Below are positions 53,369 to 61,430 of a DNA stretch of 64,000 bases, piece after piece (positions within the stretch are counted from its first letter, which is position 1; every line of letters begins with the position of its first letter). Origin of the DNA: Furfurilactobacillus milii. GTDB taxonomy: Bacteria > Bacillota > Bacilli > Lactobacillales > Lactobacillaceae. Below the pieces are notes generated by a model, which did not search any database, was not told the DNA's origin, and saw only the letters and a list, made by a program, of their open reading frames with translations. The stretch covers positions 310,001 to 374,000 of the forward strand of contig NZ_JAIWJF010000001.1 in assembly GCF_021654115.1 (NCBI RefSeq), read 5' to 3'. The translations under genes and the position numbers were made by a program.

Positions 53369-54004
53369 TCAACTCCCAATAATTGGCATAGAGTTGATAT
53401 ATTTTTTGCTTTCAAGCTGTTCTACCATGAAAGCACCTATATCTTCACGGGAGATTGCAAAATTCATTTTCGTATCACCGAACCCAACCTTAACATTGTT
53501 TGTATAGGAAGCATTTTTGGGCGCCATAAAACGTACAATTGTCCAGTTGAGATTTGACTCTTGTACTAACTTTCCGATTTCTATCATTTCTTTTTTTGCT
53601 GTTGTAAGTCCAATTCCTGCAAGAATTCCGGGAACAACCGTAATGAATGATTTTTTATCTTTTTTAAAAGGCACACTTGGAGTTCCCCAATCAATAAGTC
53701 TTTTTACTCCATATTCCCTCATTGCAGTCAAAAGAATTTTATGACTCTCAAGGGATGCCATTGTTTCATATTTGCGTTTAAGTGGAATGCCGATACACCA
53801 AATGACAGCGTCTTGCCCTTGCATGGCAGTTTTCATAGATTTATTATCAGTTATTTCTCCTTGTACAATAGTTAGATTGCTATCTTTTATTTGAACTTTG
53901 TCTGGATTTCGCACATACGCCGTTACCGTATACCCTTTTTGAAGCGAATGCTTTAAGGCGTATTTGCCGATTCCTCCAGTTGCACCAAATATAATTACTT
54001 TCAT
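53369..54004 (-). CDS. NAD(P)-binding SDR-like oxidoreductase (NmrA/YwnB type)
   Basis: The 211-residue atypical short-chain dehydrogenase has the nucleotide motif IIFGATGGIGKYALKHSL at the start, AYVRNPDKV, and WTIVRFMAPKN. There is no YxxxK catalytic pair. AAAGGAGG precedes the ATG. It is AT-rich and divergent from an HxlR gene of similar composition, a frequent pairing in which the regulator controls the reductase. Confidence 0.88.
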   Translation of the reverse strand: MKVIIFGATGGIGKYALKHSLQKGYTVTAYVRNPDKVQIKDSNLTIVQGEITDNKSMKTAMQGQDAVIWCIGIPLKRKYETMASLESHKILLTAMREYGVKRLIDWGTPSVPFKKDKKSFITVVPGILAGIGLTTAKKEMIEIGKLVQESNLNWTIVRFMAPKNASYTNNVKVGFGDTKMNFAISREDIGAFMVEQLESKKYINSMPIIGS

Positions 54005-54113
54005 CTGAACAACCTCCTTTACATATCCCTATACTAAAAGATGCAGCATATTTGTTTAAGTACGTTATTATTTAATAGATACTATTTAAAAAAGTAGTAA
54101 TGGAGATAATGCT

Positions 54114-54476
54114 ATGAAGAATTATGAGGATATTCGTATTGAAAACTGCCCTGTTGCGAGCGTTCAGAAAATAGTACATGGAAAATGGACAATGGTTATT
54201 ATCTATTTTTTAAGTCGTGGAACACTTCGTTTTGGTGAATTAAGTCGTAAAATGCCAAAAGTTACACAAGCAAATCTTACTAAAGAACTTCGTATGCTAG
54301 AAAAGTACGGGTTAATACATCGTGAAGTTTATAGGGAAGTCCCACCAAAAGTGGAGTATTCACTAACTAATCTTGGACTCGATTTTTTGCCTGTTCTTGA
54401 GGAACTTGAAAAGTGGGCATTGATTTACGACAAAAATCAAGATGATTTTGTCAAAAGTAAACTGAACAAGCATTAA
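54114..54476 (+). CDS. HxlR family transcriptional regulator
   Basis: The 120-residue winged-helix protein has the conserved Cys in IENCPVASVQKI and HGKWTMVIIYFL, VTQANLTKELRMLEKYGL and PPKVEYSLTNLG. The cysteine fits thiol-based sensing of electrophiles, and the divergent SDR-like gene is the probable target. GGAG lies eight bases before the ATG. AT-rich composition suggests the pair was acquired together. Confidence 0.9.
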   Translation: MKNYEDIRIENCPVASVQKIVHGKWTMVIIYFLSRGTLRFGELSRKMPKVTQANLTKELRMLEKYGLIHREVYREVPPKVEYSLTNLGLDFLPVLEELEKWALIYDKNQDDFVKSKLNKH

Positions 54477-58355: not shown

Positions 58356-58463
58356 GTGTGATTGTCCTCCATCGATATAATCGATTGACAATATTAAAAA
58401 TATCAATTTTACGAATGAATGGTTCACGTGTAAGCTTAAACCATCTTGAAGGGAGCAACAAGC

Positions 58464-58952
58464 ATGAATATTGAACCATATCACACGGATGCACGATTAA
58501 CGGCTGGTCTGGTGGATCTCATTGAATTTTGTCAAAACGATGAGGCTCATTTAGGAATTAAGATGATTGAACAGTCCGATGTTTTTGAAATTGAACATCA
58601 CTATCAGGAAAATGGCGGTAACTTTTGGATTGCCCTAGATGACGATAAAGTGGTCGGGTCAATCGGTTTACTAAAAGTTGGGCAACAAACGGCCGTTTTG
58701 AAGAAACTGTTCACCTATCCAGAATATCGTGGTGAACCGCATCGGCTTGGTCGCAAGCTTTTCCAAACATTGCTGACGTACGCACAGGCACAACCAGATA
58801 TTGATAAGCTGGTTCTTGACACACCAATGGGTGAGCATCGTTCGCACTTCTTTTATGAGAAGCAGGGTTTCAAACGTATTTCCCGGGAAAAGTTGACGGT
58901 TGATTATGAATTTCCGGATCGCGATTCGCTCATTTATGAACGTGAACTCTAA
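58464..58952 (+). CDS. GNAT family acetyltransferase
   Basis: The 162-residue acetyltransferase has the acetyl-CoA fold: FWIALDDDKVVGSIGLLKV, LKKLFTYPEYRGEPHRLGRKLFQTLLTYA (motif A, slightly altered RGxGxG), and YEKQGFKRISRE. Substrate unknown. GAAGGGAG precedes the ATG. Confidence 0.9.
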   Translation: MNIEPYHTDARLTAGLVDLIEFCQNDEAHLGIKMIEQSDVFEIEHHYQENGGNFWIALDDDKVVGSIGLLKVGQQTAVLKKLFTYPEYRGEPHRLGRKLFQTLLTYAQAQPDIDKLVLDTPMGEHRSHFFYEKQGFKRISREKLTVDYEFPDRDSLIYEREL

Positions 58953-59002: not shown

Positions 59003-59794
59003 TTAATTTAAATTGAGCTGCAATTTCATTGCTAAAGCGGCAAATGCTGCATCAGCTGTGGATGATATTCTGAAGTCTGCAAACTGCGTGAACCAAGTTG
59101 CATGCGGATTGATTTCAATAACATGTTGCGGCGAGCAATGGCGATAATACCCGTTTGACCCAGTCACAATTGTGAGGTCACTTTGAGACAGCAATTCATC
59201 GGCTAACTGATCGTTTAAGGGGACGCGCCATGCGCCATCGGTCAAACGTTGGCGCACATAAGCATTGGCTTGTTTGAGGTTGGGTGGCAAAGTACCGCCA
59301 AGATGACGAAATGCTGGTTCTGGGGACAAAAGGCCGTGGCAAACGGGGCAACGTGGGATGTCTGAATGCAGTGCCTGAAGATTAAAGATACGGCCACATT
59401 GAAGACAAAAGTTAACGTTAATGCTGCCCCAGACTTCAATTACATGATGGTTACCAGCGAGCTGGTGCAGGTGATCAACATTGGTGGTGACAATGCCATC
59501 AATGAGGTGCTGTTCTTCTAACTGCGCAATAATTTGGTGAGCTTTAGTGGGACCATATTTGTGAATCGGATCCAGCATTTCCCGATGAAAACGCTGATAA
59601 AAGGCGGCAGGGTCATCTTCTAGCCAAGTTTGAGAGAATAACCCAAACTGATTGACGGCGGATTCCATATCGGGAATATGGCTTGGCACAGAGATGCCAG
59701 CGCCCGTGAGAAATGTTGGTCGGTGAGCCGCAGTCAGTTGTTTTGCCAGTTGTTCGATTTGTCGATCAAATACGGTTTGTCTTGGTTCCAGCAT
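59003..59794 (-). CDS. Variant sirtuin (Sir2) family protein
   Basis: The 263-residue protein has the NAD motif GAGIS (31-35), TTNVDHLHQLAG (103-114), and a zinc ribbon of four cysteines (about 130, 133, 149, 152). The catalytic His of the HGS motif is Trp122 (IEVWGS), and the GIPDFR arginine motif reads HIPDMES. Classical NAD-dependent deacylation is therefore doubtful. It may bind NAD or ADP-ribose, or use another mechanism. GGAAGG precedes ATG 59794. Confidence 0.85.
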   Translation of the reverse strand: MLEPRQTVFDRQIEQLAKQLTAAHRPTFLTGAGISVPSHIPDMESAVNQFGLFSQTWLEDDPAAFYQRFHREMLDPIHKYGPTKAHQIIAQLEEQHLIDGIVTTNVDHLHQLAGNHHVIEVWGSINVNFCLQCGRIFNLQALHSDIPRCPVCHGLLSPEPAFRHLGGTLPPNLKQANAYVRQRLTDGAWRVPLNDQLADELLSQSDLTIVTGSNGYYRHCSPQHVIEINPHATWFTQFADFRISSTADAAFAALAMKLQLNLN

Positions 59795-59919
59795 AAGCTC
59801 ACCTTCCTTACATAGTCTCATACTGTCAGTGTAGCGAAATTATTCTGCAGAGTGAGTGAACTCGTTTAAGTCGACAAAAAAATGACATTTACGCGCAAAC
59901 ACAAATATCATTAACATTA

Positions 59920-61305
59920 TTATTTTGCACTATCGTTCAGTGCTTGCTCTTTAGGGTGGTTCTTAAGAAAAATCGCATAATCCTTTTCTACTTGAGGAAT
60001 ATAAGCTTCAGCCCAGTCTGTCATTGCTCGGTCAAATTTCTTAGAGTCATCGATATAACCGGCGATCATTGGTCCGGTCGGTGTCTGACAGTGGTCCACT
60101 GCCAACAAACGACCACATGATTCAGCATACACATGAAATTGATCTTCACTGAGGCTGGCAAGATCGACGGAGGTTTTCATGTCCCTAAATTGGCGAACAT
60201 AAAAACTGTGCTTTTTACTTTGGAAATAACCTAAAAAGGGATCAGATGCGGATTGTAGAATTTTCTGACTGTCAATAATGCGGCGGCCTTCATTTTCTTC
60301 AAATGTTGAGGTCAAAGCCAGTTGACGCTCGGCACCAGTTTTTCTAGTCGGCAAAGCTTCCTTGATCTGTAATACAAGGTGACTGCCATCAATACTAGTG
60401 AGCAGAACCAAATAACAGCGTGAGCCAAAGCTGCCGACACCCACACAATGACGGGCGATATCAGTGACATGATATTGCGATAATAACAATGCAATGTCGG
60501 TCCGCACGGTGGAACGATAATCGGCAAGGTAATCGATAATATTACGCGTGACATCATCATTGGTGTGACGCGTAATTTTTGCGTTATCTACAAAACGCAA
60601 ACCAGCGTCGGTCGTTTGTGTGAACTTTTTAACGACTTGTTCTGAGTTCCGTTTGCCAGCTTTATCCAAGAAATACTGAATCATCTCAGCTGTTGGATCA
60701 CCTTCCGGAACAGCGCCAAGAATGCTGGCCACGTCGTTTGCTGGATAGAAACGGTCAATTGTCGACCGTTTGATACTGGCCTCAATGCCCGCCCGATAAC
60801 TTTTGGCCACGTTCCGTGTGATTTTATGAATCTTTTTATCTGTGTAACCATTCTCGCGGCCAGCTAAAATAACGCTCACTAGCAGGCGTTTGACATCGCG
60901 CTCCCAGGAGTTCACGCCAGCTTCATCAAAATCATTTAAGTCAAAGACCAATCTTCGTTCGGGAGAGGCGAAGAAACCGAAATTTCCCAAGTGTGCATCG
61001 CCTGAAATGATGACGGGAATGTGGGTACTTGCTTGGTGGTTGAGGTCAAACGCCATTAGCTCGGCAGTGCCACGAAAGAACGTGAAAGCTGATACGCCCA
61101 TTCGCCGATACCGCTCAGGCAGTAATTCAGGAACTAGCATATCTGAAATACGTTGCATTAAGAGCGTTGGATCCCGTTGCGTTTGTTTGAATGTGCCGAG
61201 TGCATCAAAGGGGACCTTTTCACGTAATTTGTCGCCCATGTGCTCTAAGTCCGTTTGGCTGCTATTGACGATGATGTTATTGATGTCTAGACCGCGATTT
61301 GCCAT
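59920..61305 (-). CDS. DUF2252 family protein
   Basis: The 461-residue protein matches the uncharacterised DUF2252 family: RYRRMGVSAFTFFRGTAELMA, SGDAHLGNFG, VFDLNDFDEA and WERDVKRLLVS. The GDAHLGN and DLNDFDEA pair resembles catalytic and metal loops of aminoglycoside-phosphotransferase-like kinases, so phosphotransfer on a small molecule is plausible. AGGAGG lies 15 bases before ATG 61305. A start further upstream cannot be excluded. Confidence 0.85.
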   Translation of the reverse strand: MANRGLDINNIIVNSSQTDLEHMGDKLREKVPFDALGTFKQTQRDPTLLMQRISDMLVPELLPERYRRMGVSAFTFFRGTAELMAFDLNHQASTHIPVIISGDAHLGNFGFFASPERRLVFDLNDFDEAGVNSWERDVKRLLVSVILAGRENGYTDKKIHKITRNVAKSYRAGIEASIKRSTIDRFYPANDVASILGAVPEGDPTAEMIQYFLDKAGKRNSEQVVKKFTQTTDAGLRFVDNAKITRHTNDDVTRNIIDYLADYRSTVRTDIALLLSQYHVTDIARHCVGVGSFGSRCYLVLLTSIDGSHLVLQIKEALPTRKTGAERQLALTSTFEENEGRRIIDSQKILQSASDPFLGYFQSKKHSFYVRQFRDMKTSVDLASLSEDQFHVYAESCGRLLAVDHCQTPTGPMIAGYIDDSKKFDRAMTDWAEAYIPQVEKDYAIFLKNHPKEQALNDSAK

Positions 61306-61393
61306 GAAAGTTAAGGATGCCTCCTGAGTAAATATTGGTTTGATTATACTCCGTGGTTCGGTATAGAAACAAACATTGCCAAATTTTGACACC

Positions 61394-61430
61394 AAAAAAA
61401 GGCTATCCAACCGCCACTAGTTGGATAGCC
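61394..61430 (-). terminator. Terminator of the map gene
   Basis: On the minus strand GGCTATCCAA pairs with TTGGATAGCC, followed by seven T residues. Confidence 0.9.

Follow-up and report, generated by a model that had tools for sequence, protein, structure and literature searches.

Tryptophan in place of the catalytic histidine marks a putative clade of sirtuins in Lactobacillales

Sir2 domains are said to conserve the histidine of the HG motif absolutely (PMC12931631), and the natural exceptions found in the literature are glutamine in SirTM and asparagine in Avs5. What, then, might be the activity of a sirtuin that carries tryptophan at this position, such as the one encoded in the 64,000-nucleotide stretch of Furfurilactobacillus milii DNA analysed here (the window)? 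No description of the tryptophan form was found in the open-licence literature, which is weak evidence of novelty, since subscription papers lie mostly outside it. The host genome comprises 2.65 Mb in 26 contigs. The gene and the features of its product, with residues counted from the ATG at 59794, are as follows:

59003–59794, minus strand: tryptophan-sirtuin gene, an open reading frame of 263 aa with its ATG at 59794 and its stop codon at 59003–59005
59821, minus strand: alternative ATG of this gene
59799–59807, minus strand: likely ribosome-binding site GGAAGGTGA of this gene, read from the sequence
59690–59704, minus strand: GAGIS, residues 31–35, the NAD-binding loop, kept (Gly33 and Ser35 in 25/25 clade loci)
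59660–59680, minus strand: HIPDMES, residues 39–45, instead of GIPDFR, with Phe and Arg lost (clade alignment)
59585–59587, minus strand: His70, clade-typical, a candidate substitute base (clade alignment)
59474–59488, minus strand: TTNVD, residues 103–107, with Asn105 and Asp107 kept and Thr104 for the canonical Gln
59429–59431, minus strand: Trp122 codon TGG at the position of the catalytic His (sequence and HMMER alignments)
59339–59407, minus strand: zinc ribbon, Cys130/133/149/152 (sequence and clade alignment)
59222–59302, minus strand: low-confidence stretch of the structural model, residues 165–191 (pLDDT < 50)
59144–59161, minus strand: GSNGYY, residues 212–217, instead of the canonical G[TS]SLxV loop (clade alignment)

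The original prediction named a sirtuin in which IEVWGS (residues 119–124) carries Trp for the catalytic His and HIPDMES stands in for GIPDFR, with GAGIS, TTNVD and the zinc-ribbon cysteines intact. Both replacements were confirmed, as HMMER puts W122 on His116 of Sir2Tm and aligns M43–E44 with the Phe-Arg of GIPDFR, and the intact motifs all lie at the places claimed. The protein is a sirtuin by fold and by profile. It scored 73.6 bits with Pfam SIR2 (2.6e-20), where 24 bits is the cut-off, and by sequence its top match was Sir2Tm of Thermotoga maritima (phmmer 6.8e-24; profile 5e-42), a class U sirtuin. When an AlphaFold2 model (19 sequences; mean pLDDT 83, pTM 0.83, residues 165–191 poor) was compared with known structures by Foldseek and VIA-align, Sir2Tm entries again ranked first (1.7e-21; Z 26.6, rmsd 2.3 over 220 residues), and the protein is thus predicted to have the full sirtuin fold. 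An insert at residues ~170–191 is confined, among the 19 aligned sequences, to the window copy and its three orthologues. Sir2Tm shares with the window sirtuin the Rossmann and zinc-ribbon plan and the same Asn/Asp, but its His116, Phe33, Arg34 and Gln98 and its FGE and GTSLxV motifs are all replaced. In the HMMER alignments W122 falls on Tyr in 2h4h, the 'H116Y mutant', and on His in the other Sir2Tm entries. The canonical deacylase hallmarks that we looked for in the window protein, namely the catalytic His in HG, GIPDFR, TQNxD and FGE, are absent, and the NCBIfam deacylase models score far below their threshold (best 112 bits against 243). Judged by its motifs, the protein would not belong to the canonical deacylases of the CobB/SrtN type.

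A profile of this group, searched against a genome collection described as covering 84,980 species by a single genome apiece, matched 63 stretches, of which 21 (L021–L041) encode relatives; the tryptophan was part of neither of the patterns by which relatives were searched for. With the window, L002, L016 and L045, these gave a clade alignment of 25 loci in 27 rows, the split genes L034 and L041 having been entered as two pieces each (one of the extra rows stops before the Trp site and the other is out of frame there). The relatives come from eight genera of Lactobacillaceae (Furfurilactobacillus, Pediococcus, Limosilactobacillus, Secundilactobacillus, Levilactobacillus, Lentilactobacillus, Lactobacillus and Lacticaseibacillus), and the clade also occurs in a MAG of Streptococcaceae and in another that is labelled Bacteroides sp. 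The W-sirtuin locus of the last (L039:6001–6720) is near-identical to those of Lactobacillus L037/L038 and is probably a binning error. No close relatives were found on plasmids (65 records with a match, all < 60% identity) or in phage (tblastn matches in 27 records, all < 60% identity), and 27 matched stretches of viral contigs held no relatives. The window protein is 97% identical to its counterpart in F. milii C5 and 96% to that in F. rossiae, and identities among the clade sequences are mostly 37–50%. A single odd protein had been predicted; the oddity is real but does not stand alone, for the host genome has three SIR2 genes: the window copy, another with Trp whose product is 46% identical, and one regular His-sirtuin.

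Alignment and trees place the window protein in what appears to be a distinct clade of His-less sirtuins of Lactobacillales, which we call W-sirtuins. The clade is supported at 100/99 in both trees, with L047 (see below) inside it in the first, and the His group is split off by a branch at 99/94 and 98/94 in these two unrooted trees. The first tree, like the structure alignment, was made without L034, L038 and L041, and the second without L034, L035, L038, L039, L041, L047, L001 and L091. Pairwise dN/dS within the set made up of the window gene and its three Furfurilactobacillus orthologues was 0.058–0.087 (six pairs), and for the Trp paralogue it was 0.042–0.056 (three pairs, first 720 bases), so both genes are under purifying selection. 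A sequencing error or pseudogene as the source of the window copy was ruled out by these low values and by the same Trp in the three orthologues.

The original prediction envisaged that a family alignment might bring out a conserved Trp, and such it proved to be: the catalytic position is Trp in 25/25 clade loci (window included) versus His in 48/48 canonical sirtuins, a comparison set that was grouped by locus number after an earlier table had been seen, lacks L090 (no ORF extracted) and includes many close copies from one genus (g43). The replacement is one of a set. At the Phe33 position the canonical Phe/Tyr (48/48) gives way to Leu in 18, Met in 6 and Trp in 1 of the 25 clade loci; Arg34 is Arg in 48/48 canonical rows versus 1/25; Gln98 is Gln in 48/48 versus Thr in 25/25; and the Gly of the HG motif, present in 48/48, is retained in just 5/25. 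The FGE region is mostly Phe/Tyr-Arg/His-His in the clade (FRH in the window protein), and the GTSLxV loop has become GSNGYY, in which Tyr217 (25/25) stands at the place of a Val found in 48/48 canonical sirtuins. Invariant throughout the 25 clade loci are Gly33, Ser35, Pro82, His86, Asn105, Asp107, His110, Gly212 and Asn229, and the four zinc ligands are Cys in 25, 23, 25 and 21 of them, the fourth being Asp in the other 4. Asn105 and Asp107 correspond to the Asn/Asp pair that is linked in sirtuins to nicotinamide release. Taken together, the replacements suggest a pocket that has been rebuilt where the nicotinamide ribose and the substrate lie and is kept where NAD is bound and nicotinamide cleaved off; NAD binding could be weakened by the loss of Arg34 and the altered GTS loop. 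On this sequence evidence, the clade is very probably real and poor in deacylation.

Tryptophan occupies the site in a second group as well (L048, L049, L051 and L063), where the motifs read TMN[VI]D and EYWG (Trp in 4/4) and the counterparts of Asn105 and Asp107 are kept in 4/4. Two of these loci are from the same family and two from another family of the order, and the group is supported at 100/99 in the trees. A single origin of Trp in both groups is possible, keeping in mind that long branches join there and that the trees are unrooted. All four loci adjoin a carboxymuconolactone-decarboxylase-like gene (below NCBIfam cut-offs), and two of the four have a MerR gene whose best model, NmlR, is likewise below its cut-off. 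A relative of the main clade, L047 (1507–2151, minus strand, in genome G191), has Gln at the catalytic site, as in SirTM, and adjoins an NAD(P)H-binding reductase gene; no usual start codon was found ahead of its NAD-binding motif, and it may be decaying.

What chemistry would such a pocket permit? Once nicotinamide has departed, the sirtuin His serves as the general base that resolves the cyclic intermediate (PMC8556138), and Trp is incapable of acting as a general base. Retention of the Asn/Asp pair favours NAD+ cleavage, and the rebuilding of the far side of the pocket speaks against deacylation. To this extent the original prediction, that the protein binds NAD or ADP-ribose and has a different activity, agrees with the alignment, the NAD residues being kept and the deacylation residues replaced in 25/25; the different activity itself is putative. 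The closest precedent is SirTM, which has Gln for His and is described as a transferase without deacylase activity encoded in operons that carry two oxidoreductases (PMC4518038, PMC11490716). SirTM resembles the W-sirtuins in the natural replacement of the catalytic His within a sirtuin fold that keeps the Asn, in occurring also in Lactobacillales and in its oxidoreductase operons (PMC4518038, PMC11490716). Since SirTM has lost the His, lacks deacylase activity, ADP-ribosylates and sits in an oxidoreductase operon, and since the W-sirtuins keep the Asn/Asp pair, ADP-ribosyl transfer is favoured: we put the probability that W-sirtuins are an NAD-using, deacylation-incompetent class of ADP-ribosyl transferases at roughly 0.4. 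According to this proposal, NAD+ would still be bound and cleaved; with the general base gone, deacylation could not be finished and ADP-ribose would instead be transferred elsewhere, most probably onto a protein, as it is by SirTM, while the Trp near the nicotinamide-ribose pocket would shield or position the ribose.

Several observations count against transfer. SirTM depends on a Gln137-Arg192 arrangement in which Gln to His alone abolishes activity (PMC4518038), and Trp is unable to copy it. The replacement of the fourth zinc Cys by Asp in four clade loci would also speak against this reading, as do the lack of a linked macrodomain, the seven loci that have neither HIT nor reductase (the window copy and its orthologues among them) and the frame breaks that split two of the 25 clade genes and so mark the family as dispensable. 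Membership of class M (SirTM) was rejected on residue, motif and linkage: the site is Gln in SirTM and Trp in the window sirtuin, the SirTM motif GVGx[NT]TP differs from VTGSNGYY at residues 210–217, and a macrodomain gene was neither matched in the window genome nor linked to W-sirtuins in the 14 genomes searched (in 5/14 one is present on another contig or ~1.5 Mb away). The absence of a SirTM entry from the best 60 of 102 PDB profile-search matches tells nothing either way. The GcvH-L/LplA2 operon that marks the extended class M form did not show up either in a search for GcvH: the window genome gave a single match, placed on a different contig with no sirtuin around it, and GcvH was rejected as a candidate substrate because its gene sits there among unrelated genes. 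A GcvH-like gene of ~100 codons was seen in genome G000 (contig C19:354106–354387), which gave no macrodomain match, with no macrodomain or sirtuin nearby.

The gene neighbourhoods were surveyed by tblastn in flanks of 1.5 kb on either side, shorter where a contig ended, using as queries partner proteins from the W loci themselves, which biases detection towards W loci. Counted in this way, a HIT hydrolase gene is present at 10/25 W loci versus 0/55 canonical loci, an NAD(P)H-binding reductase (PF13460) at 8/25 versus 0/55, TetR at 10/25 versus 0/55 and MerR at 1/25 versus 0/55, the W counts being inflated by near-copies (L002/L026/L027; L036–L039; L021–L023 with the window), so that the 10 HIT loci collapse to about five clusters. 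HIT and reductase never occur together (0/25), and seven loci have neither: the window copy, its three orthologues, L028, L032 and L035. The HIT gene lies ~10–48 bp upstream of the sirtuin gene. The reductase is directly upstream on the same strand in 6/8 cases (L016, L025, L034, L040, L041 and L045), divergent in L024 and past a TetR gene in L033. In Lacticaseibacillus brantae (L040:5269–6687) reductase and W-sirtuin share one open frame, which appears to be either a natural fusion or the result of a lost stop codon. At L041 the reductase gene appears truncated, and in G018 (L045) it is split next to an intact sirtuin gene. In the host genome there are five HIT matches, the one linked to the paralogue being a short form of 107 aa.

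At the window locus itself the nearest genes encode DUF2252, GNAT and LysR proteins and, as judged by eye, a methionine-aminopeptidase-like protein. Two of these genes adjoin the sirtuin gene:

59920–61410, minus strand: DUF2252 gene (uncharacterised family), immediately upstream of the sirtuin gene across a gap of 125 bp
58446–58952, plus strand: GNAT acetyltransferase gene, convergent with the sirtuin gene and also present beside it at three further Furfurilactobacillus loci

The order DUF2252-sirtuin was seen in three other loci of Furfurilactobacillus and in this genus only. No terminator-like site was called on the sirtuin strand in the 125 bp gap, and co-transcription of the two genes is possible. 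Some 5 kb from the sirtuin gene (window 53369–54476), a small regulator-like gene, HxlR-like by eye, and a gene resembling NAD(P)-binding reductases face each other.

Applied to these partners, the ADP-ribosyl-transfer reading would make the reductase a target or helper and the HIT protein a possible remover of the product, and the window copy, as part of the partnerless subgroup, may work in trans with the host genome's other Trp-sirtuin locus, the one linked to HIT. The role of HIT as an eraser is a guess, prompted by analogy with what the PADLOC authors propose for ThsC (PMC8565338). Work of the W-sirtuins in redox or electrophile stress is hinted at by the partners. The full scheme, in which W-sirtuins are the ADP-ribosyl transferases of a reversible stress switch with HIT (eraser) or reductase (target), parallel to and distinct from SirTM with its macrodomain, is graded as doubtful.

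The foremost alternative, itself tentative, is a non-catalytic sensor of NAD(H) or ADP-ribose that regulates the reductase, HIT or regulator, with the Trp capping the ribose pocket and no cleavage taking place. The joint loss of Phe33, Arg34, Gln98 and His116 and a Trp that is no base would suit such a protein, and so would the TetR/MerR genes alongside and the NAD(P)H-binding enzymes among the partners, one of which shares an open frame with the sirtuin. A mere binder, however, would have no need of Asn105 and Asp107, which are kept in 25/25 clade loci and in 4/4 of the second group.

It is unlikely that the W-sirtuins are NAD glycohydrolases which, like the Sir2 domains of immune systems, hydrolyse NAD+ when triggered. 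Their TTNxD is the form seen in immune Sir2 domains, and PaAvs5, with Asn at the catalytic site, is a natural His-less NADase (PMC12931631). However, only Asn or His at the PaAvs5 site gave protection, and Ala and Gln gave none (PMC12931631), and FAM118 requires its His (PMC12700824). The likeness to Avs5 with its NG motif thus extends to a His-less Sir2 with TTNxD (PMC12931631), whereas the residue is Asn, not Trp, and the Avs5 domain sits within a large defence protein of the STAND type. Immune SIR2 NADases (ThsA, DSR, Avs5, SIR2-HerA) are fused to or encoded with a sensor or effector; the window sirtuin is not, since its 263 aa matched SIR2 alone and no sensor or effector domain was found in it. 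A suggested role in defence gained no support: PADLOC gave only weak matches of ~30 residues (<= 23.9 bits), none of them convincing as a known system, and the scanned neighbours look metabolic or regulatory. A signalling role, which the original prediction named beside defence, is possible. Thoeris type II, in which a SIR2-family protein lies beside the HIT protein ThsC, is similar in that respect, a HIT protein being present in 2.4% of Thoeris systems (PMC8565338), but the window sirtuin is small, has a zinc ribbon and is not a ThsA-type effector. No TIR (ThsB-like) gene was found among the neighbours scanned, and the HIT protein of the W loci matches ThsC (48 bits) less well than the general HIT model (77 bits).

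That the W-sirtuins are still protein deacylases, with the part of His116 taken over by His70, by one of the GSNGYY tyrosines or by substrate assistance, is improbable. Tyr217 is kept in 25/25 clade loci and His70 in 22/25, on a helix that in SIRT5/CobB bears acyl-pocket residues; in canonical rows that position is Lys/Arg in 32/48 and His in 0/48. Against a substitute base, His70 is Arg or Gln in 3/25 W-sirtuins (one a split gene), the loss of FGE and GTSLxV as well would disturb the acyl-peptide groove, and SirTM, having lost the same His, showed no deacylase activity. A decaying paralogue without particular function is very improbable: the patchy distribution in the family (12/301 genomes at E <= 1e-35), the frame breaks at two loci (L034:5992–6687 and L041:5947–6641) and the missing start codon of the Gln relative L047 would all suit it, yet it is disfavoured by the dN/dS of 0.06–0.09 for the window orthologues and 0.04–0.06 for the paralogue and by coordinated, invariant replacements across such divergent sequences.

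These findings suggest that the name 'NAD-dependent protein deacylase', given to such genes by similarity, is probably wrong. A clade with an invariant Trp and matched changes around it offers a natural experiment in telling NAD cleavage apart from deacylation, and the HIT hydrolases and NAD(P)H-binding reductases linked to it suggest that lactic acid bacteria possess a small system for modification or sensing. Cumulatively, the W-sirtuin clade suggests that a sirtuin-shaped enzyme has been re-used for purposes beyond the removal of acetyl groups.
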